Virus record (IMG/VR): IMGVR_UViG_3300036045_000017
Coordinates: 1-48,756 of that record
Origin: a virus
Reading direction: 5' to 3' (one strand)
Length of the DNA stretch: 48,756 bases
Part shown: positions 20,453 to 45,100 of the stretch, one piece after another
Layout of the letters: each line of letters begins with the position of its first letter
How positions within the stretch are numbered: the first letter of the stretch is position 1
Made by a program: the position numbers and the translations under genes
Notes under the pieces: model-generated
Told to the model about the DNA's origin: nothing
Seen by the model: only the letters and a program-made list of their open reading frames with translations
Database searches by the model: none

Positions 20453-20473
20453 CTCACAATTCAGGAGTTGGCC
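20453..20473. repeat. 21-bp direct repeat, copy 2 (end of XRE-like gene)
   Basis: Identical to 16833-16853. Here it overlaps the stop codon and last codons of the XRE-like gene and lies 63 bases upstream of the next ATG at 20390. Both copies have the same orientation relative to transcription and both precede a virion gene. Confidence 0.9.
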
Positions 20474-20928
20474 GCTAGGACTTCCACCGTCGTGTCGAGC
20501 GCCTGTGCGATCAGCATCAGCGCCGGGAACGGGATGTTGCGCCGCCGCATGGTTTCCAAGCGGACGATCGTCTTGTGATCGACCCCTGACCGCTTGGACA
20601 GCTCGTAGATGGTCCAGTCGCGCGATTCCCGCGCCACCTTCACCGCCCGCGACACCCGCACAAAGATCTCGTGCATGCGCTCCCCGGCGGCATGGCTGCT
20701 CGATCGCGGGTGGCTCTTGCACACCTGCTCTGCCCAGGCGCAGAACCTCCCACCACGGCCCCACCCAACCGGGCTCATGGGGTGCACCACGCGCTCGGCC
20801 CGCAGGATCGTCAGATACGCCAGCGCCCGGTCCTCACTGACGCCGGCTTCGGCAGCCAGCACCGCGACGGTCGTGGTCCACTCCGGCACGCGCAGCAGCC
20901 GGATCACCGCACCGCGCAGGGGCGGCAA
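20461..20928 (-). CDS. XRE-family HTH protein with an N-terminal winged-helix-like part (about 155 aa)
   Basis: The C-terminal 60 residues (WTIYELSKRSGVDHKTIVRLE to IAQALDTTVEVLAANS) are a typical XRE/Cro-type helix-turn-helix. The N-terminal part (AVLAAEAGVSEDRALAYLTILRAERVV) looks like a second HTH or winged helix followed by a basic, Cys-containing linker. The start is uncertain: a TTG at 20928 six bases after the large terminase stop is proposed, and an internal ATG 150 bases further in would remove the first HTH. Located inside the packaging operon, it may be a late regulator or a packaging accessory that binds DNA. Confidence 0.72.
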   Translation of the reverse strand: MPPLRGAVIRLLRVPEWTTTVAVLAAEAGVSEDRALAYLTILRAERVVHPMSPVGWGRGGRFCAWAEQVCKSHPRSSSHAAGERMHEIFVRVSRAVKVARESRDWTIYELSKRSGVDHKTIVRLETMRRRNIPFPALMLIAQALDTTVEVLAANS

Positions 20929-23869: not shown

Positions 23870-24553
23870 TCACCCATCCCTGCCCTCCTGCTCCCCGATC
23901 GCACTTGGCGCCTTGTTCGAGCGGACCACGCGCACGACCACGTCGCCCTTCACTTCGCGCTTTTCGGTCAGCTCGCCATTCATCTTGGCCAGCAGCTCGG
24001 CGGCCTTGATGCTCTCCGATACATCGGCGTGTGTGGTGATCGTCTCGCCGTAGAAGGTCGACTTGCGCTTCACCTGGCCGCGCATGACCGCCGTCAGGAA
24101 CTCGTGCCGCTCCTGAGCGTCGGCGATTCGCGGGGACGCGAGATCGTCCAGTAACTCGCCGATATAGGCCCTCACGTTAGCCTGGGCTAGCAGCCTGGAC
24201 GCGCACGCCTTCACCGCCTCCGCGTTGCCGCTCTCGTATCCCGCGTCCCGGTAGGCCTTGGATCCGTTGCCGTGCTTGGCGTAGTGCTCCGCAAAGGCGC
24301 GCTGCCGTGGGTTGAGGGCACGGGAAGCCAGTTCGTCATCGGTGGCGCTGGCGTTCGCCTCTTCCGTGCGCCGCGCGTGCTCCGCGCGGATCGCGTCCGC
24401 CTCGGCGCTGCCGGCAAACAGGTCTTCGTCCGCCCTGGACTCCCCGGCCATCTTCCCCTTGCGTGCGCCCTTGGGTGCCGCGCGACCCCCGCGTGTGTTG
24501 GTCTTCCCCTTGGGCGTGCCAGCGCCCTTGTCCCTGGGGGTGCGAGCGGTCAT
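23870..24553 (-). CDS. terS: Terminase small subunit (227 aa)
   Basis: Residues 1-45 are basic and low complexity. Residues about 80-132 match the Terminase_2-type HTH pattern (LNPRQRAFAEHYAKHGNGSKA, then YRDAGY and a helix with ACASRLLAQANVRAYI). A helical oligomerization region follows (about 135-200), and the C-terminus is basic. It recognises the packaging site and stimulates the large subunit. The ATG overlaps the stop of the first gene of the operon (ATGA). The large subunit lies three genes downstream, which is a wider separation than usual. Confidence 0.88.
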   Translation of the reverse strand: MTARTPRDKGAGTPKGKTNTRGGRAAPKGARKGKMAGESRADEDLFAGSAEADAIRAEHARRTEEANASATDDELASRALNPRQRAFAEHYAKHGNGSKAYRDAGYESGNAEAVKACASRLLAQANVRAYIGELLDDLASPRIADAQERHEFLTAVMRGQVKRKSTFYGETITTHADVSESIKAAELLAKMNGELTEKREVKGDVVVRVVRSNKAPSAIGEQEGRDG

Positions 24554-24855
24554 AGGCGGTAGATCTTGGCCTCACCGCGCTGGATGAGCCTGGGAAGGGG
24601 TTCCAGGCTGTCGGGCGCTGCTGTGCCCTGCTGGCAGGCGTCGTGCGGCTCTGGCGTCATCTCCGTCCCGCGTTCCTCTGCCCTGCGCGCCTGGTCTTCC
24701 GCCTCGATCGCCATGCCGTCCGACAGACCAAGGCGGTATCCGGCCTCATTGCCGTCAAGGAAAGCCTGCTGGGCCTCCTGGCGGATCAGGTGGCCAGCGA
24801 TCAGTTTTGCCAACCAGAGGCGTGGGCGTCGCAAGTAGTTGCGTAGGATTGGCAT
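24550..24855 (-). CDS. First gene of the leftward virion operon, hypothetical (101 aa)
   Basis: The start at ATG 24855 is favoured over more distal in-frame starts because GGAAAG lies upstream and the distal starts would run through the operator region. The sequence is helical, basic at the N-terminus (MPILRNYLRRPRLWLAKLIAG) and acidic in the middle. It has no recognised family. It is the promoter-proximal gene facing the rightward operon, with 115 bases of regulatory sequence between them. Confidence 0.75.
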   Translation of the reverse strand: MPILRNYLRRPRLWLAKLIAGHLIRQEAQQAFLDGNEAGYRLGLSDGMAIEAEDQARRAEERGTEMTPEPHDACQQGTAAPDSLEPLPRLIQRGEAKIYRL

Positions 24856-24886: not shown

Positions 24887-24941
24887 TTGACGGATACCAA
24901 TATGTATTCACAACACACGCGCAACGATACGGAAGTGTATC
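24887..24941. promoter_or_regulatory. Divergent promoter region with two repressor-type operators
   Basis: Two 16-bp palindromes of the form GATAC-N6-GTATC lie 33 bp apart: GATACcaatatGTATT (24893-24908) and GATACggaagtGTATC (24926-24941). A TTGACG at 24887-24892 resembles a rightward -35 box, without a clear -10. The region separates the leftward virion operon (ATG 24855) from the rightward accessory operon (GTG 24971). The same operator occurs four times at the repressor gene near 35.4 kb, so binding by that repressor is inferred. Confidence 0.75.
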
Positions 24942-24970
24942 TAGCAAACCTGGCAACCAAGGAGCCGCCC

Positions 24971-26440
24971 GTGACCGCCCCCGCAACCCAGCCCCACAAG
25001 ACCGCCGAATCCGCCGCCGTTGCCGACCTGTGTGCGCTGTACGGCGCGACGGTCGAGACCTACCAGTGCAACGCCGCGGGCGCCAAGGTCGCCTTCCCCC
25101 ATTCCGCCACGTACAGCCCGCAGGACGACAAGCTGCGCCTGTACTTCGCCTTCCGCATCCCGCGCGACCAGTGGGACGCCCTGCGCGCGGCTGGCTTCGT
25201 GTGGTGCCAGAAGCAGGCGGAAACCGGCGGCTGTGACATGGCCGCGGTGTGGTCGCCCGACCGTGAGGACATGGCCCTGGAGCTGGCCGGCGAGATCGAC
25301 GACGAGGACCAGCCGCGCGAGGAGCGCGCCGCGCAGCGTGCCGAGCGCTTCGCCGGCTACCGCGACAAGCGGGAGGGGGAGGCGGATGCCCTGGCCGACC
25401 GCTACGACGCTCGCCCGCGCGTGCACGGGAACCAGGACCGCGAGCGCGCCGAGCGTGCGGCGGCCCGCCACGACCGCATCGCCCCGCGTGCGGTGACCCA
25501 GTGGGGCAAGGCTGAATACTGGCAGAGCCGGACCGCCCGGGTGATCAGCCACGCCCTCTATGTCGAGCGCGCGGACGTGCGGCATCGTCGCATCAAGGGG
25601 CTGGAAGCAGAGCTGCGCCAACTGCTGGCCGAGGTCACCCCGTCGAAGGTGTTCGAGGGTGTCGAGTACGTGCGCCGGTACATCGGCGAGGACGCGGTGG
25701 CGAAGGGCCACGACTGCGTGGGGATCTTCGGTCAGGGCCGTGCCCGCCACCCGCGCAGCTACGCCAAGGCCTCACCGTTCGTGCTCGGCGCCAGGGGGGA
25801 GCGCTGCCGCGCCCATCTGGAGCTGCGCATTGCCTACGAAAAGCAGATGCTTGCGGCACAGGGCGGCACGTCGGCCGACGTGGTCGAGATGGTGGCGGGC
25901 GGCTGGATCGGCTCGCGCCAAATCCAGAAGATCACCAAGGACCGCGCGGGCCGCGTGTCCAAGCTCTACTTCGTCGGGCCGCATCCGTACCGCGAAGGTC
26001 AGACCTGTCTGCACGGCATCAGCGCTGAGGACATCAAGCCGGGCAGCTACCGTGCGCCGACCGCCGAAGAGGCCGCGGCGTTCACCGCCTCGCGCAAGGA
26101 AAGCAACAAGCTTCCGCCGCTGGTGAACATGGACGACGCGAGCGCATACGCCTACCTGGAGGCGCTGAACGCTACCCAGGGTGAGCAACACCGCCGGTGT
26201 TCATCGGAACGCTTCACGCCCGCCACCCTGCTGCGCATGACCAGCGCCGAGTGGGCACGCATGCAGCGCGCGACCGACTCCTATCAAGTGGTCGTGCGCG
26301 AGTTCCGCGGCCAGAAGCTGCGCCTGCGTGTCGGCCTCAACTGGCTGGGCGTCCGCCACGTGGTGGTGCTCAGCGACAAGCCGGTGGCCGCCATCGCTGC
26401 CCCGGTCGCCGCGCCCGAAGCCGCCACGGTGTCGGCGTGA
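24971..26440 (+). CDS. DUF3560-like protein (489 aa)
   Basis: The start is set at GTG 24971 because AAGGAG lies seven bases upstream; ATG 24902 would overlap the operators. Residues about 115-220 show the charged, Arg/Glu/Ala-rich DUF3560 pattern (AAQRAERFAGYRDKREGEAD, then PRVHGNQDRERAERAAARHD and GKAEYWQSRTARVISHALYV). Residues 25-100 form a separate mixed domain (DKLRLYFAFRIPRDQWDALR, VWCQKQAETGGCDMAAVWSP). The C-terminus is basic and beta-rich. DUF3560 proteins are common on plasmids and phages near anti-restriction genes; their biochemical role is not established. The stop overlaps the methyltransferase start (GTGA). Confidence 0.8.
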   Translation: MTAPATQPHKTAESAAVADLCALYGATVETYQCNAAGAKVAFPHSATYSPQDDKLRLYFAFRIPRDQWDALRAAGFVWCQKQAETGGCDMAAVWSPDREDMALELAGEIDDEDQPREERAAQRAERFAGYRDKREGEADALADRYDARPRVHGNQDRERAERAAARHDRIAPRAVTQWGKAEYWQSRTARVISHALYVERADVRHRRIKGLEAELRQLLAEVTPSKVFEGVEYVRRYIGEDAVAKGHDCVGIFGQGRARHPRSYAKASPFVLGARGERCRAHLELRIAYEKQMLAAQGGTSADVVEMVAGGWIGSRQIQKITKDRAGRVSKLYFVGPHPYREGQTCLHGISAEDIKPGSYRAPTAEEAAAFTASRKESNKLPPLVNMDDASAYAYLEALNATQGEQHRRCSSERFTPATLLRMTSAEWARMQRATDSYQVVVREFRGQKLRLRVGLNWLGVRHVVVLSDKPVAAIAAPVAAPEAATVSA

Positions 26441-27075
26441 GCTTCGCCGACCGCATCAAGGCCGCCCGCGTCCGCCTCGCGCGGGCGGGCGAGCTGTGCG
26501 AGCTGGCCGGCGAGCGCATCGCGGCCAAGCGTGCGCGGTTCGCCAAGCTGGCCAGCCGACACGAGGACGGCACCGCGCCCCAGGCGGTGTCCGCTCACCA
26601 GCTCTTCCCGACGCCGGCGGAAATCGCGTGGCGCATGGTGTCCCTGGCTGACATCCAGCCGGGCCACCGCGTGCTGGAGCCGAGCGCGGGGACCGGGCGT
26701 CTGCTGGTGCGCATGCCGGTGGATGCCGAGGTGACCGCGGTGGAGATCGCGCCGGAGCTGCTGGCCGTGCTGTACCGGGATTTCCCGGGCGTGCGGCTCA
26801 AGGCCGGCGACTTCCTCGCGCGCACGGTCGACGATCTCGGCGGGCCGTTCGATCGCGTCGTGATGAATCCGCCGTTCACGCGCGGGAGTGATGTTCGGCA
26901 CATCATGCACGCGTGCACGATGCTCAAGCCGGGCGGGGTGCTGGTGGCGCTCTGCTACGACGGGGTCGAGCAGAACAAGCGACTGCGTCCGATCGCCAAG
27001 ACCTGGGAAGTGCTGCCTGCTGGTTCGTTCCGCAGTGAGGGGACGGGGGCTGGTGTCGTACTCATCACCCTCTGA
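26437..27075 (+). CDS. DNA methyltransferase, N6-adenine type (212 aa)
   Basis: Starts with a GTG overlapping the DUF3560 stop. Residues 1-45 are a basic helix. QLFPTP (55-60) leads into the SAM-binding motif I (LEPSAGTGR, 80-88). An acidic motif II-like residue is at VEIA (102-105), and the catalytic motif IV NPPF is at 144-147. There is no obvious target-recognition domain, so this is a minimal class I fold. The closest known relations are phage/plasmid orphan adenine methylases, and a role in protecting phage DNA from restriction is plausible. No cognate restriction gene is nearby. Confidence 0.88.
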   Translation: MSFADRIKAARVRLARAGELCELAGERIAAKRARFAKLASRHEDGTAPQAVSAHQLFPTPAEIAWRMVSLADIQPGHRVLEPSAGTGRLLVRMPVDAEVTAVEIAPELLAVLYRDFPGVRLKAGDFLARTVDDLGGPFDRVVMNPPFTRGSDVRHIMHACTMLKPGGVLVALCYDGVEQNKRLRPIAKTWEVLPAGSFRSEGTGAGVVLITL

Positions 27076-27115
27076 TTTTCCTCCCAAACCACACCGTTAA
27101 CCCAAGGAGAAACTC

Positions 27116-28276
27116 ATGCACCTTTCCGACCTGACCCCCGAGCAATTTTCCGGCAAGGAGAAGATTCCGGGCGACCTCTACCTGAGCAGCGTCACCAGCC
27201 TGCCCGAGGGCTTCAACCCGACGGTCGGCGGCTACCTCGACCTGCGCAGCGTCACCAGCCTGCCCGAGGGCTTCAACCCGACGGTCGGCGGCTACCTCTA
27301 CCTGAGCAGCGTCACCAGCCTACCCGAGGGCTTCAACCCGACGGTCGGCGGCTACCTCGACCTGCGCAGCGTCACCAGCCTGCCCGAGGGCTTCAACCCG
27401 ACGGTCGGCGGCTACCTCGACCTGCGCAGCGTCACCAGCCTGCCCGAGGGCTTCAACCCGACGGTCGGCGGCTACCTCGACCTGAGCAGCGTCACCAGCC
27501 TACCCGAGGGCTTCAACCCGACGGTCGGCGGCTACCTCGACCTGCGCAGCGTCACCAGCCTGCCCGAGGGCTTCAACCCGACGGTCGGCGGCTACCTCGA
27601 CCTGAGCAGCGTCACCAGCCTGCCCGAGGGCTTCAACCCGACGGTCGGCGGCTACCTCGACCTGCGCAGCGTCACCAGCCTGCCCGAGGGCTTCAACCCG
27701 ACGGTCGGCGGCTACCTCGACCTGCGCAGCGTCACCAGCCTGCCCGAGGGCTTCAACCCGACGGTCGGCAGCTACCTCTACCTCGGCTCGCTCACTCACT
27801 CCAAGAGGGACAGCCTAATGGAAAGGCTTCGCCGACCCGCATCGCCCCTGCGCTGGAATAACCACATTCTGGTTGACGGGATTCTCGCCAAAGTTCTACA
27901 TGAGCACGGCCCGACTTTTCGCGTGCAGGTGGTCGGGAAGCGTGACCAATCCTACCTTGTCACGGACGGCACCAACTGGAGCCACGGCACAACGCTGGAC
28001 GAGGCCCGGGATTCGCTCGTCTACAAAACCACCGACCGCAGCCCGGAACAATATCGCAGCCTCGAGCTTGATTCTGTCCTGACCTTTTCCGAAGCAGTCG
28101 CGTGCTACCGGACGATCACTGGCGCATGCGCGGCCGGCGTGCGGCATTTCGTTGAGTCCACGGGCGCTCCGCGCGAGGAAGTTACCGTGCGGAAGATCCT
28201 GGAAATCACGCGCGGTCGGTACGGACACGAGGTGTTCGCTGCGTTTTTCCGCGAGCCGGTGGCCAACCATGCCTGA
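27116..28276 (+). CDS. Tandem-repeat (LRR-like) protein with conserved-looking C-terminal domain (386 aa)
   Basis: Preceded by AAGGAG. After a 22-residue N-terminus, ten consecutive 20-residue repeats (about 22-221) follow the pattern LxLxSVTSLPEGFNPTVGGY, differing only at a few residues (D/Y, R/S, one G to S). This resembles leucine-rich-repeat-like solenoids, with Leu and Val at regular spacing. Residues about 235-386 are a distinct domain with NHILVDGILAKVLHEHG, SYLVTDGTNWSHGTTLDEAR, GVRHFVES and a C-terminal helical part. The function is unknown. The gene is nonessential-looking and lies in the accessory operon. Repeat number could vary by recombination. Confidence 0.85.
   Translation: MHLSDLTPEQFSGKEKIPGDLYLSSVTSLPEGFNPTVGGYLDLRSVTSLPEGFNPTVGGYLYLSSVTSLPEGFNPTVGGYLDLRSVTSLPEGFNPTVGGYLDLRSVTSLPEGFNPTVGGYLDLSSVTSLPEGFNPTVGGYLDLRSVTSLPEGFNPTVGGYLDLSSVTSLPEGFNPTVGGYLDLRSVTSLPEGFNPTVGGYLDLRSVTSLPEGFNPTVGSYLYLGSLTHSKRDSLMERLRRPASPLRWNNHILVDGILAKVLHEHGPTFRVQVVGKRDQSYLVTDGTNWSHGTTLDEARDSLVYKTTDRSPEQYRSLELDSVLTFSEAVACYRTITGACAAGVRHFVESTGAPREEVTVRKILEITRGRYGHEVFAAFFREPVANHA
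27181..27780 (+). repeat. Ten tandem 60-bp in-frame repeats
   Basis: Ten exact 60-bp periods with very few substitutions, including synonymous TGCCC/TACCC differences in the third and sixth copies and in-phase codon changes (Asp/Tyr, Arg/Ser). Such near-identity at the nucleotide level indicates recent duplication or homogenization. Confidence 0.98.
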
Positions 28277-28472
28277 CGCATCCCCATCAGCGACCGACTG
28301 GACCCACACCGAGCGCACCTGCCTCCGTTGCCGCCGCTTGCGCTCGATCTGGGACTTCCCCCGCGTCGTCGCCATGACCTTCGTCGACGGCATCGCCCAT
28401 CCGGTCACCGAGCCCCGCGGACTCAGCACCAAGATCTGCAACGACTGCCACGCCAAAACCAGAGAGAATTGA
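28269..28472 (+). CDS. Small CxxC...CxxC putative zinc-binding protein (67 aa)
   Basis: The ATG overlaps the end of the repeat-protein gene by eight bases. Cys at 18 and 21 (CLRC) and at 57 and 60 (CNDC) form a probable zinc-ribbon or treble-clef-like site. The segment between them is basic (RRLRSIWDFPR). Such small zinc proteins in phages may bind nucleic acid or host factors. No specific function can be assigned. Confidence 0.8.
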   Translation: MPDASPSATDWTHTERTCLRCRRLRSIWDFPRVVAMTFVDGIAHPVTEPRGLSTKICNDCHAKTREN

Positions 28473-28474
28473 CC

Positions 28475-29479
28475 ATGACCACCGCCACCCAACCCCAATC
28501 CATCACCACCACCGCTCCGTCGCTCGACTCCGCGCTCGCCAAGTGTGGCCTCGCCGGTGAGGGCCTGTTGTCGCTGCGATCAGCCTACGCGCCGATCTTC
28601 GACAGCCTGCAACCGCTGGTCGACCAGGCGCGCGAGATCCTGCCGACCGATGCCAAGGGCGCCCGTGCGCTGCGGCTCAAGATCAAGGACGTGCGGGTGT
28701 CTGGTGACCACCAGCACAAGCAGCTCAAGGCCGACATCCTGCTGCGCGGTCGCGCGATCGACGGCATGCAGAGCGTGCTCGACTTCGCCTGCAAGCCGGT
28801 GGAGTCGGCCCTCCAGGCGATCGAGGAAGCCGAGGCGCGTGCCGAGGCGGCACGCAAGGCCAAGCTGCAGCAGGATCGTGCAGCCGAGCTGCGGCCCTTC
28901 ATGAGCCCGGACCACATCGACCTTGGCAGCATGGCCGATGATGCGTGGCAGCTCCTGCTCAGCGGAGCGCGCACGGCCCATCAGAACAAACTCGACAACG
29001 AGGCGCGCGAGAAAGCGCAGCGCGAGGCGGAGGAACGTCGGGCCGCCGAGGAACGCGCCAGGAAGGCCGAGGCCGACCGCATCGAGCGCGAGCGCATCGC
29101 CGCGGAGAACGAGCGTTTGCGACAGGAGAACGCGGCGCGCGAAGCCGAGCTGGCCAAGGAGCGCGAGGCACAGCGGATCAAGGACGAGGCGGCTGCGGCG
29201 GAGCGGAAGAAGCTGGCCGACGCCGCTGCCAAGGCCGAGGCGGAGGCCAAGCGGTTGCGTCAGGAGCAGGAGGAGAAGGAGCGCCAGGAGAAGGCGGCCA
29301 AGCGCCGGCTCGCTCGTGCACCTGACAAGGTGAAGATCAAGGGGCTGGCCGATCGGGTGCGCCAGATCGAGATCCCGCACTTCACCAGCGAGGACGGCGC
29401 GGCGGTGGGGCAGAAGATCAGCGAACAGCTCCAGAAGTTCGCGGCGTGGTTGGAGGTTGAGGCGGAGAAGCTGTCGTGA
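28475..29479 (+). CDS. Coiled-coil protein, hypothetical (334 aa)
   Basis: The first 150 residues are mixed helical (LRSAYAPIFDSLQPLVDQAR, RLKIKDVRVSGDHQHKQLKA). Residues about 165-285 are a long Glu/Ala/Arg/Lys-rich coiled coil. The last 50 form a basic then acidic tail. The layout resembles phage DUF1351-like or host-nuclease-inhibitor coiled-coil proteins, but the match cannot be confirmed by eye. The gene starts two bases after the zinc protein and its end overlaps the next GTG (GTGA). Confidence 0.82.
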   Translation: MTTATQPQSITTTAPSLDSALAKCGLAGEGLLSLRSAYAPIFDSLQPLVDQAREILPTDAKGARALRLKIKDVRVSGDHQHKQLKADILLRGRAIDGMQSVLDFACKPVESALQAIEEAEARAEAARKAKLQQDRAAELRPFMSPDHIDLGSMADDAWQLLLSGARTAHQNKLDNEAREKAQREAEERRAAEERARKAEADRIERERIAAENERLRQENAAREAELAKEREAQRIKDEAAAAERKKLADAAAKAEAEAKRLRQEQEEKERQEKAAKRRLARAPDKVKIKGLADRVRQIEIPHFTSEDGAAVGQKISEQLQKFAAWLEVEAEKLS

Positions 29480-29718
29480 GTCAAGGGCGCCCACACACCA
29501 AACAGCAGGACGCCATCCTGGAGAAAATCGACCGGGATGCGGGCGACATCAAGGACCGCAAAGAGAAGATCTTGCGTGACCTCGGATGGGAGCACTACAC
29601 CAGCAAAATCGACTTCTGCTGGCGCTGGAGGAAGACCATCGACGGCGAGGTGGTCACCTGCGGCGTTGATGAGGCCTTCCACATCGAGTTGGCGCGCGTT
29701 TGGGGGGACGAGGAATGA
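29476..29718 (+). CDS. Hypothetical protein (80 aa)
   Basis: Coupled to the coiled-coil gene by GTGA and to the next gene by ATGA. An N-terminal helical, charged region (KQQDAILEKIDRDAGDIKD) is followed by a Trp/Cys-containing segment (WEHYTSKIDFCWRWRKTID). No family is recognised. It is small, soluble and acidic at the end (RVWGDEE). Confidence 0.8.
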   Translation: MSQGRPHTKQQDAILEKIDRDAGDIKDRKEKILRDLGWEHYTSKIDFCWRWRKTIDGEVVTCGVDEAFHIELARVWGDEE

Positions 29719-30236
29719 CCAAAACCCACGAGCTGAAAACCCACCCCGGCCCGTTCCAGGCGCTCATGGACGGCACGAAGACCTTCGAGTTCCGCAAGGA
29801 TGATCGTGGGTTTGAGGTCGGCGATCGGCTGACGCTGCGGGAGTGGCGACCGCCCGACATGCCAGGGGCTGCGACGCTCGGCATTCCGGTTGGCGTCTAC
29901 ACCGGTCGCTGTGAGGACTTCCTCATCACCTACAAGCTCGCCGGTCGCTTCGGCGTTCCCGAGGGCTACTGCGTGCTCGGCATCAAGCCGGAGTCGTTCA
30001 CGGTGAAGGAGGGGGCAGAGCTTCGCGAACGTATCCAGGAACTGAACGACGAGCTGAGCGACGCCAATGCCAAGATCGAGGAGTTGCAGGATCTGGTCGA
30101 TGCCTACGAGTCGCCAGAGAACGAGCTGCCGACCATCAGCACGGTTGCCGTCGCCCAACTCCCATCGCTCGACCGCGACCAGATGCTCGCCGATCTCAAG
30201 CGTGAGGTGCTGGCGGTGGGTGGGACGTGGCCATGA
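29715..30236 (+). CDS. DUF3850/ASCH-like RNA-binding protein with coiled-coil tail (173 aa)
   Basis: Residues 1-100 match the DUF3850 ASCH-like pattern: HELKTHPGPFQALMDGTKTF is followed by FRKDDRGFEVGDRLTLREW, then a glycine turn and YCVLGIKP. ASCH folds bind RNA or modified bases. Residues about 105-140 are a short Glu/Leu coiled coil (LRERIQELNDELSDANAKIE), which is unusual for the otherwise compact family. The start is ATG 29715, overlapping the previous stop. Confidence 0.85.
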   Translation: MTKTHELKTHPGPFQALMDGTKTFEFRKDDRGFEVGDRLTLREWRPPDMPGAATLGIPVGVYTGRCEDFLITYKLAGRFGVPEGYCVLGIKPESFTVKEGAELRERIQELNDELSDANAKIEELQDLVDAYESPENELPTISTVAVAQLPSLDRDQMLADLKREVLAVGGTWP

Positions 30237-30475
30237 GCGGCAACTACGTCATCTGCGAGCGCCACCTCACTGGCCTCTACGGGCCAACACTCGGAATCCA
30301 CCCGCACTGCGACATCGTTTTCGGTGACTTCGATATGGCGAAGAACCACGCGCAACGGATCGGCGGAACTGCTGAGGCGGGGCGCGTCGAGCTGGTCGTC
30401 TGCGAGCTGGTCGAGGCGGCCAAGCAGACGCATCACGGCGGGCCATGGATCAACAGGGAGCCGCGCCGTGAGTGA
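30233..30475 (+). CDS. Hypothetical protein (80 aa)
   Basis: The ATG overlaps the ASCH gene stop; an in-frame GTG six bases earlier is an alternative. It has Cys/His residues near the N-terminus (YVICERHLTG, IHPHCDIVFGDF) and a helical C-terminal half with ELVVCELVEAAKQTHHGG. These could form a metal site, but spacing does not match a known finger. The family is unknown. Confidence 0.78.
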   Translation: MSGNYVICERHLTGLYGPTLGIHPHCDIVFGDFDMAKNHAQRIGGTAEAGRVELVVCELVEAAKQTHHGGPWINREPRRE

Positions 30476-30734
30476 CGACGACATGGCCGCCGACTTCCGC
30501 GCCCTGCGCGAGGAATCGAAGCAGCGCCGGCAGAACAACCGCGAACACGCGCCTACCGTGCTCCAGGCTGAGGGGATCGCGTTCACCTCGCACAACGGGG
30601 GCGCGCACCTGGTGGTGGTCCACGGCGGCATCGTCTGCGACTTCTGGCCCGGCACCGGGAAGTGGATCCAGCGGAAGTCTGGCGGTCGGACCGGCCGTGG
30701 GATCCGGAATCTTATCAAGGAGATTCGGTCGTGA
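30468..30734 (+). CDS. Hypothetical protein of a common phage type (88 aa)
   Basis: Starts at GTG 30468, overlapping the previous gene by eight bases. A charged N-terminal helix (AADFRALREESKQRRQNNRE) is followed by a compact beta-rich part (GIAFTSHNGGAHLVVVHGGI, then CDFWPGTGKWIQRKSGGRTG), a pattern met in many uncharacterised phage early proteins. No function is known. The C-terminus is basic. Confidence 0.8.
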   Translation: MSDDDMAADFRALREESKQRRQNNREHAPTVLQAEGIAFTSHNGGAHLVVVHGGIVCDFWPGTGKWIQRKSGGRTGRGIRNLIKEIRS

Positions 30735-31318
30735 GTGATCTTACCAAGAACGCAGAGAAATGTTTCACTGAGAGTTCGGCGGACCGGACGATGGTCATCC
30801 TCCACGACAGCGGTCTGTACCGCAATTTGCGGTGCGCGAAGGCCGGCACGTGGGAAACCGGGTTCTACATCACTACATGGCCGGGCTTCCTGGCGATCAG
30901 CGGTGACATGGGGTGCTACGTGTTCACTCGCCTGACGGATATGTTCGAGTTCTTCCGCGGAGATCGCGTCAATCCCAGCTATTGGGCCGAGAAGATCGAG
31001 GCGTCCGACAGGTGCTCTGGCCTGCGCGAGTTCGACAAGGACGAAGCGCGGCGGTGGGTTGCCGAGCAGGTCAAGGAGGCGAAGGAGAACGGCTTCACCG
31101 ACCTTGATGACCTGGATGACGATCTCGACGCCATCAACTATGAGGACGGTCCGATCCGATTCCATGACTCGCTGCCGGGGCATGGCATTTTCCGTGATGC
31201 ATGGGAACATAACTTCGAGCGCTACACCTTCCGATTTCTGTGGGCCTGCCATGCGATCGTGTGGGCGATCAAGCGGTATGACCTGGCGAAGAAGGCTGCC
31301 GAGGTGGTGGTCAGGTGA
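30731..31318 (+). CDS. Hypothetical protein (195 aa)
   Basis: Begins at GTG 30731 (GTGA with the upstream stop). The sequence contains a beta-rich first half (WETGFYITTWPGFLAISGDMG, CYVFTRLTDMFEFFRG) and an acidic middle with TDLDDLDDDLDAINYEDGP. A C-terminal helix (FRFLWACHAIVWAIKRYDLA) is amphipathic or weakly membrane-like. It resembles uncharacterised phage proteins with a conserved FLAISGD segment. The function is unknown. Confidence 0.82.
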   Translation: MSDLTKNAEKCFTESSADRTMVILHDSGLYRNLRCAKAGTWETGFYITTWPGFLAISGDMGCYVFTRLTDMFEFFRGDRVNPSYWAEKIEASDRCSGLREFDKDEARRWVAEQVKEAKENGFTDLDDLDDDLDAINYEDGPIRFHDSLPGHGIFRDAWEHNFERYTFRFLWACHAIVWAIKRYDLAKKAAEVVVR

Positions 31319-31533
31319 TCCCCGCCCACACCGTCCCAACCGACCAACTCTCCAGCTTTCCCGCGCTGGCCGCTCGCTTGCTTCCGCGCACCGGCGACGT
31401 GTTCCGCTGTGGGCCCCTGGAGGTCGTGCTCGATCTCTCGCTGCCGCCGGACGCCGTGGTGATACGCAATCCCATCATCGCGCGGGATCCGGCGTTCGAG
31501 TTGCTGGACCAGCTCGACCAGGATCGCGCGTGA
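31315..31533 (+). CDS. Hypothetical protein (72 aa)
   Basis: Starts with a GTG that overlaps the previous stop. Short, Leu/Pro-rich and acidic, with VFRCGPLEVVLDLSLPPDAV and a C-terminal acidic helix (FELLDQLDQDRA). No family is recognised. It is supported mainly by coupling on both sides in the accessory operon. Confidence 0.72.
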   Translation: MIPAHTVPTDQLSSFPALAARLLPRTGDVFRCGPLEVVLDLSLPPDAVVIRNPIIARDPAFELLDQLDQDRA

Positions 31534-31796
31534 CCAAGGCCTGGGACATCCTCGTGATCCCGAAGCGCGGCGAGATCTTCCGCAAGGAGTTCGCGCATCG
31601 GCCGGAGCTGGTGATGGTGCTGCGCCGTGTGCAGCGGTGCTCGCATGAGCGGGCAGAGTGCTACGTGATGCCGATGATGGTGGTTGATGGTCAGGAGCGT
31701 GTGGCCGGTCCGTCTGCGCCCGCGATGGTCGAGCGGGTGACGTTCCGCCTGCATCTGACGGACCTGGGGCTGGCGTATGTGGAGACGGAGCGATGA
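31530..31796 (+). CDS. Hypothetical protein (88 aa)
   Basis: GTG at 31530 overlaps the previous stop (GTGA). The sequence is compact and mixed, with Cys at CSHERAECYVMPMM and a C-terminal strand-rich region (VERVTFRLHLTDLGLAYVET). No family is recognised. The next ATG overlaps its stop. Confidence 0.76.
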   Translation: MTKAWDILVIPKRGEIFRKEFAHRPELVMVLRRVQRCSHERAECYVMPMMVVDGQERVAGPSAPAMVERVTFRLHLTDLGLAYVETER

Positions 31797-32071
31797 GGCT
31801 GCCCACGTATCCTGAGACCCTGACCCTGCGCGAGTGGTACCGCTGGTTGCGCGCCGATGGCTGGCCGGCAGGTGAAGCTGTTGCCGAGGCGAGGCGGGTC
31901 CTGGGGTGGACGGTCGCGCAGCACGAGGCGTGTTGGGTGTCGGTGCTCAATGAGGTGTTGGTGCATGCGTCGGAGGCCATGAAGAAGCGTCCGCCGGCAC
32001 CACCGGATCGCACGCAGACGCCGGTGTTTTCGATGTTCATGAAGAAGCGAAACGACAAACCCCGCCGGTGA
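31793..32071 (+). CDS. Last gene of the accessory operon, hypothetical (92 aa)
   Basis: ATGA-coupled to the previous gene. Trp-rich helical N-terminus (LREWYRWLRADGWPAGEAVA) and a basic C-terminus (MKKRNDKPRR). No family is recognised. Its stop codon lies inside the strong hairpin that probably ends the operon. Confidence 0.78.
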   Translation: MRLPTYPETLTLREWYRWLRADGWPAGEAVAEARRVLGWTVAQHEACWVSVLNEVLVHASEAMKKRPPAPPDRTQTPVFSMFMKKRNDKPRR

Positions 32072-32085
32072 GGGCGGGGCTGTCG
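32053..32085 (+). terminator. Strong hairpin at the end of the accessory operon
   Basis: A 5-bp outer stem (CGACA/TGTCG) and a 7-bp GC stem (CCCCGCC/GGCGGGG), separated by a small internal loop, close over the loop GGTGAG. The gene's TGA is in the loop and the 3' stem follows it. No T-tract follows, so it may act as a weak or Rho-assisted terminator or as an mRNA 3' stabiliser. Confidence 0.65.
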
Positions 32086-32140
32086 TAGGTGGTGGATCCA
32101 GCAACCACCGGCTGCCTGCGCAGGCCGTACTAACCTTGGT

Positions 32141-32198
32141 GCCACCTCCACGGTGGCGTCTACCCTAACGCAAAGCCCCAGCGTTTCCGCCAGGGCTT
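32141..32198. other. Further hairpins in the 32.07-32.72 kb noncoding region
   Basis: GCCACC (32141-32146) pairs with GGTGGC (32152-32157), and AAGCCC (32173-32178) with GGGCTT (32193-32198). A third, CCCC/GGGG, lies just after. Together with the terminator hairpin, tRNA-like sequence and attP, they make the 650-base noncoding stretch 32072-32719 highly structured. No ORF with an acceptable start is seen in it. Confidence 0.5.
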
Positions 32199-32263
32199 CA
32201 CTTCCCCAGGCCAGTGGGGCGTATCGGCATCCGGAGTGTCGCGGGGACCTTGCCAGAGCTGGC

Positions 32264-32354
32264 TGGTGCAAGGGGCTGGACTCGAACCAGCACGCTCCTG
32301 GTTTCATCCTCTCGGACTACCGCCTGGTGCTCTGCCTCTTTGAGCTACCCTCGC
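32264..32354 (-). tRNA. tRNA-like element with non-canonical anticodon arm
   Basis: On the minus strand: a 7-bp acceptor stem (GCGAGGG with CCCTTGC, one G-T pair), a D arm (GCTC/GAGC), a perfect T arm (GCTGG-TTCGAGT-CCAGC), a discriminator A and an encoded CCA. The middle is 31 nt instead of 17, and its ends (CCAGG and CCAGG) are direct rather than inverted repeats, so no standard anticodon arm forms. It is either a degenerate phage tRNA or a tRNA-like structure. No amino acid is assigned. Confidence 0.5.
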
Positions 32355-32502
32355 ACACGCGGTCAGCGGCGGGCCTTCCACCCGCCTGTGGTCGCTCGAC
32401 CGTTCATTTGGCCGAGTCCCCTTAGTCCTACCGGTGATCCAGCCGGCCAGCTCGCTGACGGACGGCAGGATGCCGGGTCAGCTTGGAAAATCAAGCTGCA
32501 GC

Positions 32503-32717
32503 GAGGGTGCACCGAGGGTGCACGGTCAGGTTTCGGGGGGTCAAGCCGGCGAGGGAATGACGGTTTCTACCGGTGTTCGCAGGTGGCTTCACCTAGGCGC
32601 CGGTGCCCTGTCCAGATTTTCATTCTGGCGACACGAGTTCGAATCTCGTTGGGAGTACTTTTTAGGACTTGGCTTGTGGCTTTTCAAAGCTATGCGGAGG
32701 GTGCACGGAGGGTGCAC
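32503..32717 (+). other. Putative phage attachment site attP
   Basis: The core (32612-32657) looks like the 3' part of a host tRNA gene. It has an anticodon arm CCAGA-TTTTCAT-TCTGG (the loop would read TTC, Glu), a variable stretch, a T arm ACGAG-TTCGAAT-CTCGT, then TGGGAGT and A, with no 5' half that pairs. Two tandem copies of GAGGGTGCAC lie on the left (32503-32512 and 32514-32523) and two on the right (32697-32706 and 32708-32717), each pair spaced 11 bp. This is the layout of integrase arm sites around a core. The integrase gene is about 480 bases away. Confidence 0.75.
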
Positions 32718-32719
32718 GG

Positions 32720-33205
32720 ATGCGTAGGAAGCCGCCTGCCAGTCCATTCTTCATTGAGAAGTGCATCGACGCACGCGAGCGGTTTTCCGCGCTGCATGGA
32801 CGCGGCGACGCGTGCTGGGAGTGGAGTGGTGCTCGCGATCGGGCGGGATATGGCGTTATCTTCGTCGCTGGCGCAATGGCGCGAGCGCCGCGCGTTTCAC
32901 TCATTCTCTCTGGCAGGCTGCCAACGAACGAGTGTCCAATGGCGCTTCATCATTGCGACAATCCCATCTGCGTGAGGCCAGAGCATCTGTATTGGGGCTC
33001 GGCGGCAAATAACCACGACGACATGGTTGCCCGTGGGCGCCGAGCCAGTGTTGCTGGCTCGCGCAACCCGAACGCGAGGATAACTGCCAAGATGGCTAAG
33101 GCGATGATCGCGGCGCGCAGGTCTGGTCACACGATGCAGAGGATCGCTGGGGATTTTGGCGTCTCCGTCGGATCGGTGTGGTCGGTTCTGAACAAGCCTA
33201 GGTGA
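32720..33205 (+). CDS. HNH homing-type endonuclease (161 aa)
   Basis: Residues about 33-75 contain ACWEWSGARDRAGYG and a second segment NECPMALHHCDNPICVRPEH then LYWGSAANNHDDM, the HNH_3-type beta-beta-alpha metal site seen in free-standing phage homing endonucleases. The C-terminal 45 residues (RITAKMAKAMIAARRSGHTM to GSVWSVLNKPR) form an HTH-like DNA-binding module. The start at ATG 32720 sits directly after the right arm repeats. It lies between attP and the convergent integrase, overlapping the integrase stop by eight bases. Confidence 0.88.
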   Translation: MRRKPPASPFFIEKCIDARERFSALHGRGDACWEWSGARDRAGYGVIFVAGAMARAPRVSLILSGRLPTNECPMALHHCDNPICVRPEHLYWGSAANNHDDMVARGRRASVAGSRNPNARITAKMAKAMIAARRSGHTMQRIAGDFGVSVGSVWSVLNKPR

Positions 33206-34166
33206 GGCCCTCCAGCGCCTTCAATGCTGCGCGCTGCTTATCGATGTTCGTGCGTGCGTACTTCAAAATCGTCTGCGGCGTGCGGTGCCCGGTGATGCTG
33301 GCGATGGTGGCCACGTCGAGTCCAGCGCTCAGCATGCGGGTCAGCGCGTAGCGCTTGAGTTGATAGATGCCGACCTTGTGGTCGCCGATACGATGGAAGA
33401 ACCAAGTTGAGAAGGCATGGCCATTCTTCCATTTTTCTCCGGTGTGATCCAAAAACATCGGATCGTCTTTCTTTCTGCCCTTTATCACTCGTTGCAGCAA
33501 CTCGATCGTCTCTGGCAGCAGCGGGTGCTCAACGTCGTCGCCGCTCTTCACTGGCAGCGCCAGCTTGCCAGCCTTGAGCGCCTTCACCGGCAATCCGACC
33601 AGGCTCTCCGGGCGGTGGCCGTAGACGGCGACCAGGTGGGCGATGGCGCCGGTATCGATACGCCACTCTGCGGCCTTGTGGATCAGCTCGTCGACCGCCT
33701 CCTTGGTGAGCAGGTCTTGCATGGGCCGGCGCTTGGGGGCGTCTGGTGGATCGAGCTGCGGGATCGGTTGCCCCAGCTTGGTGTTGGCGAATTGCAGTAG
33801 GGCACGAACCAGGAAGAACGTGCCGCGTGTCAGTGTATCGGTATCGCAGACATCCGTGGTGCGCGTCCATTCCTTGTCGGCGAACAGGTCGGCAAGGCGG
33901 TCGGCGCTCTCGTCGATGTAGCGAGCGCTCCGGCCCTTCTCCTTCTTCTTTTTCTTCCACCGCTGGATGATCTCATACAGCGTCATCAGCGTGCGGCTGT
34001 CGATCTTCTTGGCTGCCGCCTGTTTGCCGTCCGCTACCTGTTTTGCGCGCTCGGCATCGTCCTTGTTGTCGAACCACTCACTGGCCTTTTGTGGCGTTCC
34101 GCGTCCGCCCTCGCGCCAGCGGACGCGCCAGGCGCGGCGCTTGGGGTGGCGTTCGAGGTAGCTCAC
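33198..34166 (-). CDS. int: Tyrosine integrase (322 aa)
   Basis: The N-terminal part (1-60) is a basic arm-binding-type region. Residues 61-140 form the core-binding helices, and 150-322 the catalytic domain. Visible catalytic residues are Arg185 (YGHRPESLVGL), Lys207 (PVKSGDD), His294 (TGHRTP) and Tyr303 (KYART). The usual HxxR motif appears as YQLK (268-271), so the His and possibly the Arg are replaced. It catalyses site-specific integration at attP. Its ATG overlaps the stop of the membrane-protein gene, so it is probably transcribed with the repressor during lysogeny. Confidence 0.92.
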   Translation of the reverse strand: MSYLERHPKRRAWRVRWREGGRGTPQKASEWFDNKDDAERAKQVADGKQAAAKKIDSRTLMTLYEIIQRWKKKKKEKGRSARYIDESADRLADLFADKEWTRTTDVCDTDTLTRGTFFLVRALLQFANTKLGQPIPQLDPPDAPKRRPMQDLLTKEAVDELIHKAAEWRIDTGAIAHLVAVYGHRPESLVGLPVKALKAGKLALPVKSGDDVEHPLLPETIELLQRVIKGRKKDDPMFLDHTGEKWKNGHAFSTWFFHRIGDHKVGIYQLKRYALTRMLSAGLDVATIASITGHRTPQTILKYARTNIDKQRAALKALEGLT

Positions 34167-34591
34167 GGTCCGGCCGCGCTTCGTGATTTCTCCAGCGACG
34201 CCCTCAGCGCCTCTTGGCGCTCCCTCTGCGCAAAATCGCGAATGGCATCATTATTTCTGAGCACCGTCCCCAGGAGAACCCCTCCGAGAAGAGCAACGAG
34301 GCTAAGTGTTCCAGCGAACCCGAAGGAGCACAATGGATGTCGGTTGGTGACCACATCCGTAACCTCACCAGGAACACGGTATTCACTATCCTCGTAGACA
34401 ACGTGATCTTGAGAGGCCCGCCATCCAATGGTGAGCGCCAGGACGACGGACGCCGCTCCGGCCAGCAGCCAGTGGATCCGCAGCGTCCGCGTGAGGTAGG
34501 CGGCCAATCCAAAGAGAACGCCAAGAAGCCCCAGTCGAAACAGGAACTCCAGCGCCTCGTTGACGCCAGCCCAGACTGTGTCGGGGCTCAT
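34163..34591 (-). CDS. Three-span membrane protein, possible superinfection exclusion (142 aa)
   Basis: The start is chosen at ATG 34591 (MSPDTVWAGVNEALEF). Three hydrophobic segments are visible: about 15-32 (FRLGLLGVLFGLAAYL), 39-57 (WLLAGAASVVLALTIGW) and 90-112 (FAGTLSLVALLGGVLLGTVL). A charged C-terminal helix follows (FAQRERQEALRASLEK). The gene lies between repressor and integrase on the lysogenic strand, a usual place for superinfection-exclusion or other lysogenic-conversion genes. That role is inferred from location. Confidence 0.78.
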   Translation of the reverse strand: MSPDTVWAGVNEALEFLFRLGLLGVLFGLAAYLTRTLRIHWLLAGAASVVLALTIGWRASQDHVVYEDSEYRVPGEVTDVVTNRHPLCSFGFAGTLSLVALLGGVLLGTVLRNNDAIRDFAQRERQEALRASLEKSRSAAGP

Positions 34592-34783
34592 TGGGCGATC
34601 GTGGAAAACGCTGTCGATAGGTTCATGTTGACCTCTGTGGGCTCGGTGCAAAATGCAGTGCCATGGCGAAGCGCAAACGCGCACCCCGGCGAGCGGATCG
34701 CCGGGCTGACCTGCCGGTCACCAGTACCCTGACCGGCCGAGCGGAGAAAATCCGCGCCGACATCCACAACACATGGGAGGCGA

Positions 34784-35317
34784 TCATCTGGACTTACCCT
34801 TCTTTGACCGCTTCCGTGCGAAGGGCTCGGCGGGCGGTGCGAGCGGTGAATCGGGTATCTCGTCGACGCCGCTGATCCGTGGCGGCTTCTTCCTGCCGCT
34901 CGCCTCCATCAACCGGTCGTAGAGCTGTTGGTTGGCGCGGCGGGCGGCGGCCAGCTTCGCCGCTGCCTCGGCGCCGTAGCGTTTCGCATCTTCATCGTTG
35001 ATCGACGGCGCCACACCAAGCCCGACCAGTTCGGACAGGAACCGCACTTGTGCGCGGGATTCTTCAAGCAACGCATGCACGCCAGCGCCTGCCTTGGTAA
35101 TGCGCGTGATCTTCGCTGCGTCCAAGAACTCCTTCCGCTGATCTCCCTCAAGGCGGAAGAAATCAGCGAGTTTTTCCGCGTGTTTGTACTTGATCGAGCG
35201 CTTGCCCTGTTCGGCAAGTGCGATCGAACCGCGCGGAACGCCGGTTTTTTCCGCTAGATCGTCTTGCGACAGATCCGCGGTGTCTCTCAGTTGGGCTAGG
35301 AGCTGGCCAAAGCGCAT
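34784..35317 (-). CDS. Phage repressor, XRE family (177 aa)
   Basis: Residues about 3-58 are a classical XRE HTH (FGQLLAQLRDTADLSQDDLA, then KTGVPRGSIALAEQGKR). A middle helical region follows (60-130) with RFLSELVGLGVAPSINDEDA, and the C-terminus is basic and Pro-rich. No LexA-like Ser-Lys protease domain is visible, so induction by RecA-stimulated self-cleavage is not evident. The gene faces a Cro-like gene across an operator region, and four GATAC-N6-GTATC sites lie just upstream. No good ribosome-binding site precedes the ATG, as in leaderless repressor mRNAs. Confidence 0.88.
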   Translation of the reverse strand: MRFGQLLAQLRDTADLSQDDLAEKTGVPRGSIALAEQGKRSIKYKHAEKLADFFRLEGDQRKEFLDAAKITRITKAGAGVHALLEESRAQVRFLSELVGLGVAPSINDEDAKRYGAEAAAKLAAARRANQQLYDRLMEASGRKKPPRISGVDEIPDSPLAPPAEPFARKRSKKGKSR

Positions 35318-35338
35318 CTGGGAATTCTAGCAGCACCG

Positions 35339-35445
35339 GATACGTATGTGAATCTTATTCAAGGAGATACATGTGCGTATCTAGATTTTACTTGATACAC
35401 TAAGGTATCCGCTAGTGTCGTATCCAATGAATACGAAAGCGTATC
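35339..35445. promoter_or_regulatory. Immunity operator region with four GATAC-N6-GTATC sites
   Basis: Sites at 35339-35354 (GATACgtatgtGAATC), 35366-35381 (GATACatgtgcGTATC), 35394-35409 (GATACactaagGTATC) and 35430-35445 (AATACgaaagcGTATC), with centres 27, 28 and 36 bp apart. The second and third are perfect. The region is markedly AT-richer than its surroundings. TTGATA at 35392 may be a rightward -35 element; promoters cannot be fixed precisely. It separates repressor and Cro-like genes. Confidence 0.85.
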
Positions 35446-35672
35446 GGAAAACACTCCCCCACCCAGCCGATGCAAGGCGTGCTGCCAAACTGACTTGGCG
35501 CGGAATGCGCAAGGCTGGCGGATTCTCCTATGCCACGGTTGCCGCCTGCGAGCGCGAGGGCCGCTACCCGCTCCAGCGCGGCACTCGCCTGCTCTACTTG
35601 ACCGTCCTCGGCCTGCCCACCGACAACCTGGACGCCCCGGTCGCTCCGCTGCGCAAGGCGGCCAAGCCGTGA
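35427..35672 (+). CDS. Cro-like small regulator (81 aa)
   Basis: The first gene of the rightward early operon, opposite the repressor. The start is ATG 35427; an in-frame GTG lies 12 bases earlier and no ribosome-binding site precedes either, so leaderless translation is possible. The body contains a probable HTH (WRGMRKAGGFSYATVAACER, then EGRYPLQRGTRLLYLTVLG). The basic start and small size fit Cro-type regulators. The fourth operator overlaps its first codons. The next gene overlaps the stop (GTGA). Confidence 0.72.
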   Translation: MNTKAYRKTLPHPADARRAAKLTWRGMRKAGGFSYATVAACEREGRYPLQRGTRLLYLTVLGLPTDNLDAPVAPLRKAAKP

Positions 35673-41959: not shown

Positions 41960-42196
41960 ATGTGCCAGTACCAGCGGCAGGCCACAGATGATCCCTGCGG
42001 CGCCAAAGTGCCTGAGCGCCACCCGGCCACCTACCAGAAGGTGTCACGCCGCATCGTAGATGGGGTGGTGACCGACACGCGGGCGGTCTACCTGTGCTCG
42101 AATGCCTGTTGCGCGGAGCGGATCAAGCTCACCTCACACCATCAGCAACAGACTCCTTCATCTCCCCCGTCGCCCACCGGTTCGCCCGCTCCCTGA
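41960..42196 (+). CDS. Putative zinc-containing small protein, end of early operon (78 aa)
   Basis: The start is uncertain: ATG 41960 is used, while an upstream in-frame TTG at 41885 would overlap the previous gene. Cys2, Cys13, Cys46 and Cys50/51 (DPCGAK; YLCSNACCAERI) suggest a small zinc site. The C-terminus is Ser/Pro-rich. The last 68 bases overlap the 3' end of the convergent giant gene. Confidence is limited by the start ambiguity. Confidence 0.62.
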   Translation: MCQYQRQATDDPCGAKVPERHPATYQKVSRRIVDGVVTDTRAVYLCSNACCAERIKLTSHHQQQTPSSPPSPTGSPAP

Positions 42197-45100
42197 GCCG
42201 CTGGATCACGCCGAGCTGCTGTGCCGGCGTCAACTCCGGATCGTCGATCAACGCGCGTTCCTCGCGTAGCAAGGTCAACCAGTAACGACCAGCGGCCTCA
42301 CGCACGCGGTCGTATTGCTCATCGGTCCACCGGACCGTCTGTCCGTTCCGTTGGTAGCTGCGTCCAACCGGGTTCGGCCACCACGTCTTGCCGCCCTCGC
42401 GCTCGATCGCCGCGTTGAGGTCGTAGATGCGCCGCTGCCAGCCCTGCGCTTCTTCGCTGGCCTTGCCACGCGGCGGGAAGAACAGCCCAGCGATGGCGGC
42501 ACCAGCGGTGTCCTCGCGGGTCTTCTCGCGTTCACCGAAGACGTTGCGCGTCGGCTTCCCAGGGTTGTAGGCGCGCTCGATCTCGTCACGCGGACGCTCC
42601 ATGCGCTCGGTCTCGGTCAGCCGGCGGTAGGTCGACACATACTGCCGACCAGGCGCCAACTGGCTGGTGACGCTCTCGCCGAACTTCTCCAGCGCGCCCT
42701 TGGGGTTGCCCTCGGCGTCGTATTGGACGCGGGTCAGGTTGTCGATGCCAGACAGGAACTGGCGCTGCACCATGGCGTTCCAAGCCTTCTCACCGAGCGT
42801 GTTCAACACCTTGCCGGCCGGCTTGCCGTCTTGCAGGTCGTGCATGGCGTCGCGGAAGTCGGCGTGCAGGGCGAGCGGCAGTGCCACCGGGTCCAGACGG
42901 CTGTAATCAACGCCGTCGATCGTGCGCGGTTGTTCGACCGCGAACCGCATCGAACGCTCGCCGCTGGTCTTGCCATCGGTCGGGCTGCCCTTCACCAACG
43001 GCTCGTCGTCGTCGCCATCCATCTGCGCGAGCAGCATCAGCGACAGGCCGGCCAGGGTGTAGGCGGTGCCCTTGAGCGCACCCGCGACCGCCTTCTGACG
43101 TTCCTGGCTGCCCTTCTCGGCGCGCAGCGCATCGATGCCGCGCTTGGCTGCGAGGGCGCCCATCAGCGGCGGCGTCGCCAGCTTCGCGCCCTCGATCGTC
43201 AGGTTGGCGATGGTTTTGAAGAATGGCATGACGAAGTAGGCGGGATTCACCGCGAACCGCCCCATGCCGGGGCCGGCTGATTCGGCCAGCTTTTCCAGCC
43301 ACTGTGGACTCGCCTCACGCAGACTGCTCAGCTTCGACAGCACCGTGTCCGCCGCCTCGTTGCCGGTGCCGCGCAGCGTGAACCAGTCGGCCCAGCGCAC
43401 CGCCTTGTCGATAAGCTCGGCGTCCGGGTTTTCGATGATCTCGCGGTGCGACCGGGTATCGCCGGCCTGCTTGGCTTCGACCGCTGCCGCCGCCAATGCG
43501 CCGTTGTAGGCCACCGTCCAGGCGGTCTCGTCCATGAACCGGTTCAACTCCAGGAACGGCGCCATCGCCAGCCGCAGGAACGGATTCTTCACCGGCGCCA
43601 CCATGCGGTTGGCGTCCTCTTCGCTGCCGCCGGTCGGATCGACCTGGCGGTTCGCTTGCGGGCGTCCGGTCCAGAAGGCGGTCGCGCCGTTGACCAAGCC
43701 CTTGCCGATCGCCCCGATGCCGGCGCGCACCGCCGCGCTCGCGCCTTGCAGGCTCAACACCTCCTGGTTGCTTGCCGTGCTCTTCATCAGCGCCTTGGTG
43801 ATGATCGGCGGCAGCGCCTTGAATGCCTGGATGCCCAGCATCAGCGGATAGCCGGTGGTGTTCGCGGCCACCGCCGCACCGCCCAGCAGGTTGCCGGCCA
43901 CGTAGTACCCGACCAGCCGCCCGTAGTGCATCCGCTCGCCGCTCACATCGCTCACCGCGTCCATCAACTGCCCGACGCTGTAGGCATCGCCGAAGATCTC
44001 GCCCAGCCGCGGGTCGCTCAGGTCGACGCCGAAGCGATCCTTGAGCACGCGATGGATGCGCTCCTGCTGCTTCGCCCACCGCGCCATCGCCGCGTCCTTG
44101 TCGCGCTTGGTCTTCGCCCGGGTGTATGCCGCCTGCCAGCGGCGCCCCATCTCAGCCGTGTGGCCGAGGATCAGCTCGCGCCGGCCTTCCGGCGTCGACA
44201 GGTCCAGGCGGCGGGCCGCCAACTCGCGGGCGACGCGCTGACCGGCCGCTTTGCGCAACGACGCCAACTCCATGGCCTCCTGCCAGCGGTTGCGGTTGCC
44301 GCTGGTGGCCGCCTCCGCCAAGGAATCGGAGACCAACCGGCGCATCGCCACCTGCTCCGCCGGATCCAGGCCAAGATCGGCCGCCGCGCGCTGACGCAGC
44401 GCCGCGACGCGCTGGGGATCGGCCAAGATGGCGTCGGCTTCCGCCTGCCACTGCGCGAAGGTCTGCCGGTCATCTCCCGGCAACAGGTCGTTGATCGCCT
44501 GCGCCGTGGTGTCCGGCTGCTCTGGCTCGGTGGCCTCCGGCTCTGGCTCCGACTTCTGACGGTCGGAAGGGGGCGGCATGTCGAGCGCATAGGCGTCTTC
44601 CTTGCCCTTGGTCGGCGGCTGCGTAGCATCGTCCTCTGACGGTTTCCTCACGGGCCGGCGCCCCTCCCCATCAGCATCGGCGGGAGTGGGCTTCGCATGG
44701 GGGGCGGTGGGCTGATCACCGCCAGGCTGGGAGGGCCGACCAGCCGCCGTCGTCTTCTTGTCGTGCGGGTAGCTCGGACGCGCTGTGGTCACCGTCAGGT
44801 GGCCATCCGGCGATTCCACCAGCCGCAGTACCATCTTGGCCGTATCGCCCAGGCTGACCACGAAACGGCCGTCACGTTCGACCTGCGATGACGGCAACTC
44901 ATCGATCGCCTGTTGCAGGAACCCTGGAACCGACATGCCGGTCTCGCGGCGGATCTCATCGCCGTGGCGCTGCTCGATGTGCTCCAGGCCGTAGCCGTTC
45001 CCGAATGGACTGTTCCAGCCGTGTTGCACGCGAATGGGCAACGGCTGCAGACCGGCCTGCGCAGCGACCTCTGGCGTCAATCGGCCCCACGTCAGGGATC

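Follow-up and report, generated by a model that had tools for sequence, protein, structure and literature searches.

A palindromic candidate operator shared by two divergent intergenic regions of a probably temperate phage

Here we describe a 16-bp palindrome, GATAC-N6-GTATC, that occurs in two clusters in a 48,756-bp viral record, the whole of which is the window analyzed here. With at most one mismatch, the dyad is present exactly six times in the record, which covers the whole genome, and three of the six copies are exact. Four copies lie at a repressor/Cro-like gene pair, and two lie 10.4 kb away between the virion operon and an accessory operon. Our favored reading, which we consider likely, is that the phage is temperate and has a lambda-type switch in which a peptidase-less, CI-like repressor of the XRE type, together with Cro, represses all four transcription units.

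Genome organization

The ends of the record form a 254-bp direct terminal repeat with one mismatch, and one gene continues across the junction of the ends. The window is therefore a closed circular phage genome of about 48.5 kb. The gene map combines open reading frames, family matches, and base composition at each codon position. Automatic gene calling had misassigned several frames, for example by placing plus-strand calls across the capsid gene; in the final map the block borders are trustworthy, individual small genes less so. Searches with the capsid returned three related phages (G006, G007, and G008, relatives by capsid and terminase), two of which are complete as judged by their end repeats.

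The genes fall into four blocks: virion, accessory, repressor/integrase, and early. The terminase-led virion block occupies about 31 kb of the minus strand, from its ATG at 24855 through the junction to 42129. The accessory block, which encodes a DUF3560 protein, a DNA methyltransferase, and others, starts with the GTG at 24971 on the plus strand. The repressor and integrase block begins at 35317 on the minus strand, and the early block, with the Cro-like gene first, extends on the plus strand from the ATG at 35427 to about 42.2 kb. On this map there appear to be only two divergent intergenic regions, one between the repressor and Cro-like genes and the other between the virion and DUF3560-methyltransferase operons, and each of the six sites falls in one or the other. 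By the standard of this genome both gaps are rich in AT, with a G+C content of 52% and 41% compared to 66% overall. A terminator-like stem on the minus strand (32081-32053) would stop a transcript arriving from the integrase side. This suggests that the virion operon receives nothing from that transcript and needs a promoter of its own near 24.9 kb.

Other features of the genome were recorded along the way. The virion block encodes a 2017-aa protein (42129-48182, minus strand) with no match in Pfam or GenBank phages. Its last 790 residues are 53% identical in G007, and a search for relatives with part of this large protein found nothing. ARAGORN placed a tRNA-Tyr (anticodon gta) at 32264-32354 on the minus strand, between the accessory operon and the probable attP. 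The probable attP core is a stretch near the integrase gene, at 32620-32660 (GACACGAGTTCGAATCTCGTTGGGAGTA), that resembles the 3' end of a tRNA.

The switch and its four candidate operators

The CI-like repressor is a 177-aa protein (34784-35317, minus strand) that matches Pfam HTH_31 (2.8e-11) and HTH_3 (1.2e-9). In its AlphaFold model the HTH domain, whose recognition helix is VPRGSIALAEQGKR, is predicted at a pLDDT of about 90, and the C-terminal half is helical with low confidence. An autoproteolytic peptidase domain of the S24/LexA-like type is absent from the Pfam results, which give HTH domains only. The fold matches in the PDB, all weak by E-value, include the restriction controller proteins C.AhdI and C.BclI as well as SinR and Stl. 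Downstream of the repressor is a tyrosine integrase (33198-34166, minus strand; Pfam 8e-9, phrog_1 3.1e-17).

The 81-aa Cro-like gene (35427-35672, plus strand) heads the early operon. A Pfam search with its product gave no match, and the AlphaFold model, at a pLDDT of 50, is too poor for use. The Cro-like label is supported by an alignment to the HTH_31 protein encoded at the same place in G006, in which 54 residues align with a score of 94; 0 of 2000 shuffles reached this score, the largest being 65. The predicted HTH of Cro is seen only via this relative. With these proteins identified, the gene assignments of the preliminary description hold: an XRE repressor, a Cro-like gene, a DUF3560-methyltransferase operon, and a terminase-led virion operon.

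As expected of a switch, the divergent HTH repressor and Cro-like genes have candidate operators between them. These sites, which are not assigned to a strand, are located at 35339-35354 (GATACGTATGTGAATC, one mismatch), 35366-35381 (GATACATGTGCGTATC, exact), 35394-35409 (GATACACTAAGGTATC, exact), and 35430-35445 (AATACGAAAGCGTATC, one mismatch). All four had been described as lying between the two genes; three are strictly intergenic, and the one at 35430-35445 runs into the Cro-like gene, overlapping its first codons (ATG at 35427). The best promoter match for the repressor (35324-35352, minus strand; TTCACA-17-TAGAAT with an extended -10, 10 of 12 consensus positions) has its -35 hexamer overlapped by the site at 35339-35354. 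The site at 35394-35409 overlaps a weak -35-like TTGATA on the plus strand at 35392. Several similar dyads are located at promoters, with an overlap that is clear only for the repressor promoter.

The remote pair at 24.9 kb

The second region, 115 bp long, separates the first virion ORF from the DUF3560 gene, and the two copies reported there are indeed inside it, at 24893-24908 (GATACCAATATGTATT, one mismatch) and 24926-24941 (GATACGGAAGTGTATC, exact), again without an assigned strand. To one side, the virion operon opens with a 101-aa ORF with no assigned function (24550-24855, minus strand), followed by the terminase small subunit (23870-24553, minus strand; Pfam Terminase_2 6.6e-15, phrog_51 2.3e-28). 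To the other side, the DUF3560 gene (24971-26440, plus strand; Pfam PF12083, 9.4e-7) heads the accessory operon, and its GTG start stands behind AAGGAG, a strong ribosome-binding site. The second accessory gene is DNA methyltransferase-like (26440-27075, plus strand; PHROG DNA methyltransferases 1e-30, Pfam MTS 2.6e-5), with coordinates that give the frame as read and a start that is approximate.

Two accessory proteins have features of their own. At least 5000 plasmids, mostly conjugative and mostly of Klebsiella and Escherichia, encode proteins that share about 30-37% identity with the DUF3560 protein. The protein encoded at 27116-28276 on the plus strand, with about ten near-identical 60-bp repeats in its gene (SVTSLPEGFNPTVGGYLDLR), is a beta-solenoid-like repeat protein.

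A plus-strand TTGACG hexamer (24887-24892) immediately precedes the site at 24893-24908. A search of 24.85-24.98 kb gave no consensus sigma-70 promoter, and the best partial match there has a poor -10, so on sequence alone control may act in either direction, virion or accessory. It is quite possible, if somewhat short of probable, that the repressor governs only the accessory operon here and that the virion operon is under a separate, later factor and not directly repressed. Most temperate phages express their late operons by means of a late activator or antiterminator, and the 24.9 kb gap gave no match to a promoter on the minus strand; both points favor control of the accessory operon only. 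However, the site at 24893-24908 starts 38 bp upstream of the virion ATG (24855), placing it between that ATG and the remainder of the gap, and no late activator was recognized in the early operon.

Statistical support for the dyad

The six dyads named in the preliminary description, starting at 24893, 24926, 35339, 35366, 35394, and 35430, are all present, and the record holds no further copy with at most one mismatch. Dinucleotide-preserving shuffles (n = 200) gave 0.21 such copies on average and no more than 3, with 0 exact copies. When the spacer was varied from 0 to 20, only a spacer of 6 gave more than two sites at one mismatch or fewer. The scan of the genome with two mismatches that had been proposed proved too loose, diluting the motif to 16 matches in the window versus 6.3 expected. 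The ten additional matches are dispersed and mostly within coding sequence; the one at 32630 is the T-arm of the tRNA 3' end at 32620-32660.

For a held-out test, a matrix was trained on only the four switch sites at 35.3 kb and then run against the circular genome and 300 shuffles. The 24.9 kb pair ranked fifth and sixth, at 21.5 and 21.3 bits, and the seventh-ranked site scored 14.0, a gap of 7 bits. The best score in the 300 shuffles was 20.3, below both 24.9 kb sites. The held-out test rules out a chance origin of the 24.9 kb pair. In 10 of the 12 half-sites, as read from the matrix scan, a purine comes directly after GATAC; for this reason the dyad may be better written as GATAC-R-N4-Y-GTATC, although six sites are few for strong claims. 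When over-represented palindromes of any sequence were sought under a simple composition model, motifs of coding periodicity dominated and the GATAC dyad did not come first; its significance is therefore carried by the held-out test and by location.

A single regulator for both regions

The same dyad stands at more than one separate transcription unit, as in a multi-operator regulon. The preliminary description had proposed one regulator for both regions, and at the level of sequence this proposal is well supported by the held-out matrix and by the exclusive location of the sites in the two divergent gaps. In addition, no other regulator gene adjoins the 24.9 kb sites.

The dyads could be bound primarily by the Cro-like protein alone or by a second XRE protein, with the repressor using other sequences, which we consider improbable. 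A second HTH_3 protein (5.8e-9) does exist; its gene (about 20461-20675, minus strand) directly follows the large terminase in the virion operon, and sequence related to this gene follows the terminase genes in G007 and G008. Against such a binder, four of the sites adjoin the repressor, with one on its own promoter, none of the six is near the second XRE gene, and scanning the switch de novo for clustered copies brought out no other dyad. Less probable still is a function of the dyads in partition or replication or as restriction-type sites. A 16-bp dyad in several copies would be typical of parS-like sites as well, and a methyltransferase gene is present in the adjoining operon, but the dyads are restricted to two gaps with divergent promoters and flank an XRE repressor, and no ParB or iteron initiator was recognized among the genes searched. 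Chance or coding repeats can be dismissed as the source of the six dyads: although about six two-mismatch matches are expected in the window, six copies were seen versus 0.21 expected at one mismatch or fewer, and none is in a gene body apart from the overlap with the Cro-like start.

Proposed control scheme

In the scheme that we favor, with the repressor as the regulator, the 177-residue XRE protein would bind the 16-bp dyad, probably as one dimer per site. On the four switch copies it would repress the early promoter, and with it the Cro-like and recombination/replication genes, and on the site at its own -35 box (35339) it would limit its own synthesis. Bound to the 24.9 kb pair, the same repressor would block the accessory operon (DUF3560, DNA methyltransferase, and others) in the lysogen, and plausibly also the start of the virion operon. 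Upon infection or induction all units would open together, with the accessory proteins made early, and Cro would probably bind the same dyads later. Since the repressor has no peptidase domain, induction probably occurs via an antirepressor or other partner rather than by self-cleavage.

A stronger form of this scheme is a two-hub architecture, in which the peptidase-less repressor directly controls every unit including the virion operon, no late activator is needed, and the accessory, possibly anti-defense, genes fire at once on infection. We regard this form as doubtful.

Relatives and related sequences

None of the three relatives has a GATAC motif cluster. G006 has a divergent pair of repressor and Cro-like genes, from which the early, accessory, and terminase genes all run one way, with the virion genes downstream of the early ones; no second copy of the G006 switch motifs was seen upstream of its terminase. 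This one comparison fits the idea that a second operator cluster would be needed only when the virion and accessory blocks have their own promoters.

Searches of IMG/VR with the full repressor or its HTH part as query returned no homologs. Neither GenBank phages nor GTDB genomes contained a full-length homolog, with one HTH-only match in each. Exact tandem pairs of GATAC-N6-GTATC were found in 28 IMG/VR stretches, none with a related repressor by phmmer; several of the 11 stretches inspected by eye are coding or tandem repeats. An unrelated viral contig has three copies of the dyad 28 bp apart (L028, 710-781), without an adjoining relative of this repressor. The upstream regions of DUF3560 relatives in IMG/VR have no common operator. 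Among GenBank phages, neither the switch DNA nor the DUF3560 protein had a match, and the terminase matches were only remote.

Comparison with known repressor systems

One repressor acting at several promoters is established in lambda, at OL and OR. Like lambda CI/Cro, this phage has a divergent repressor and Cro, an HTH repressor, a cluster of dyad operators, and a second operator region at another promoter. It differs in that the second region is 10.4 kb away and serves the accessory and perhaps the virion operon rather than a leftward early operon, the repressor lacks a peptidase domain, and there are four plus two candidate sites rather than three plus three.

The C1 repressor of phage P1 has 22 dispersed operators (PMC8546580). 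In P1, as appears from sequence to be the case here, a single repressor serves promoters dispersed over the genome, but the C1 operators are asymmetric 17-mers and far more numerous than our six palindromic sites. The Cluster A mycobacteriophage L5 has more than twenty repressor sites, comprising operators and stoperators (PMC9283540), and likewise has them at several places in the genome. However, L5 sites are asymmetric 13-mers that also occur in short intergenic spaces within operons; stoperators are oriented with transcription and found inside operons, and the palindromic sites here are confined to divergent gaps. Peptidase-less phage repressors that are relieved by antirepressors are also known (PMC10432266). 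These resemble our repressor in having an HTH domain without an autoproteolytic domain, although no antirepressor was identified in this phage.

The preliminary description had spoken of a wider immunity regulon than a single switch. Two regions are supported at the sequence level, but such a regulon is less unusual than implied when compared to lambda, P1, and L5. The scheme itself is already known from lambda OL/OR and P1 C1, and it is the pairing of targets here that is unusual.

For a group of phages whose biology is little known, the finding supplies a candidate operator sequence and a regulon that can be tested. It predicts that the DUF3560-methyltransferase operon is repressor-controlled and expressed in the lytic phase, rather than in the lysogen. 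Because relatives of DUF3560 are carried on thousands of enterobacterial plasmids, the timing of its expression here could offer a clue to what it does. Direct control of the virion operon, if true, would raise the importance of the case.
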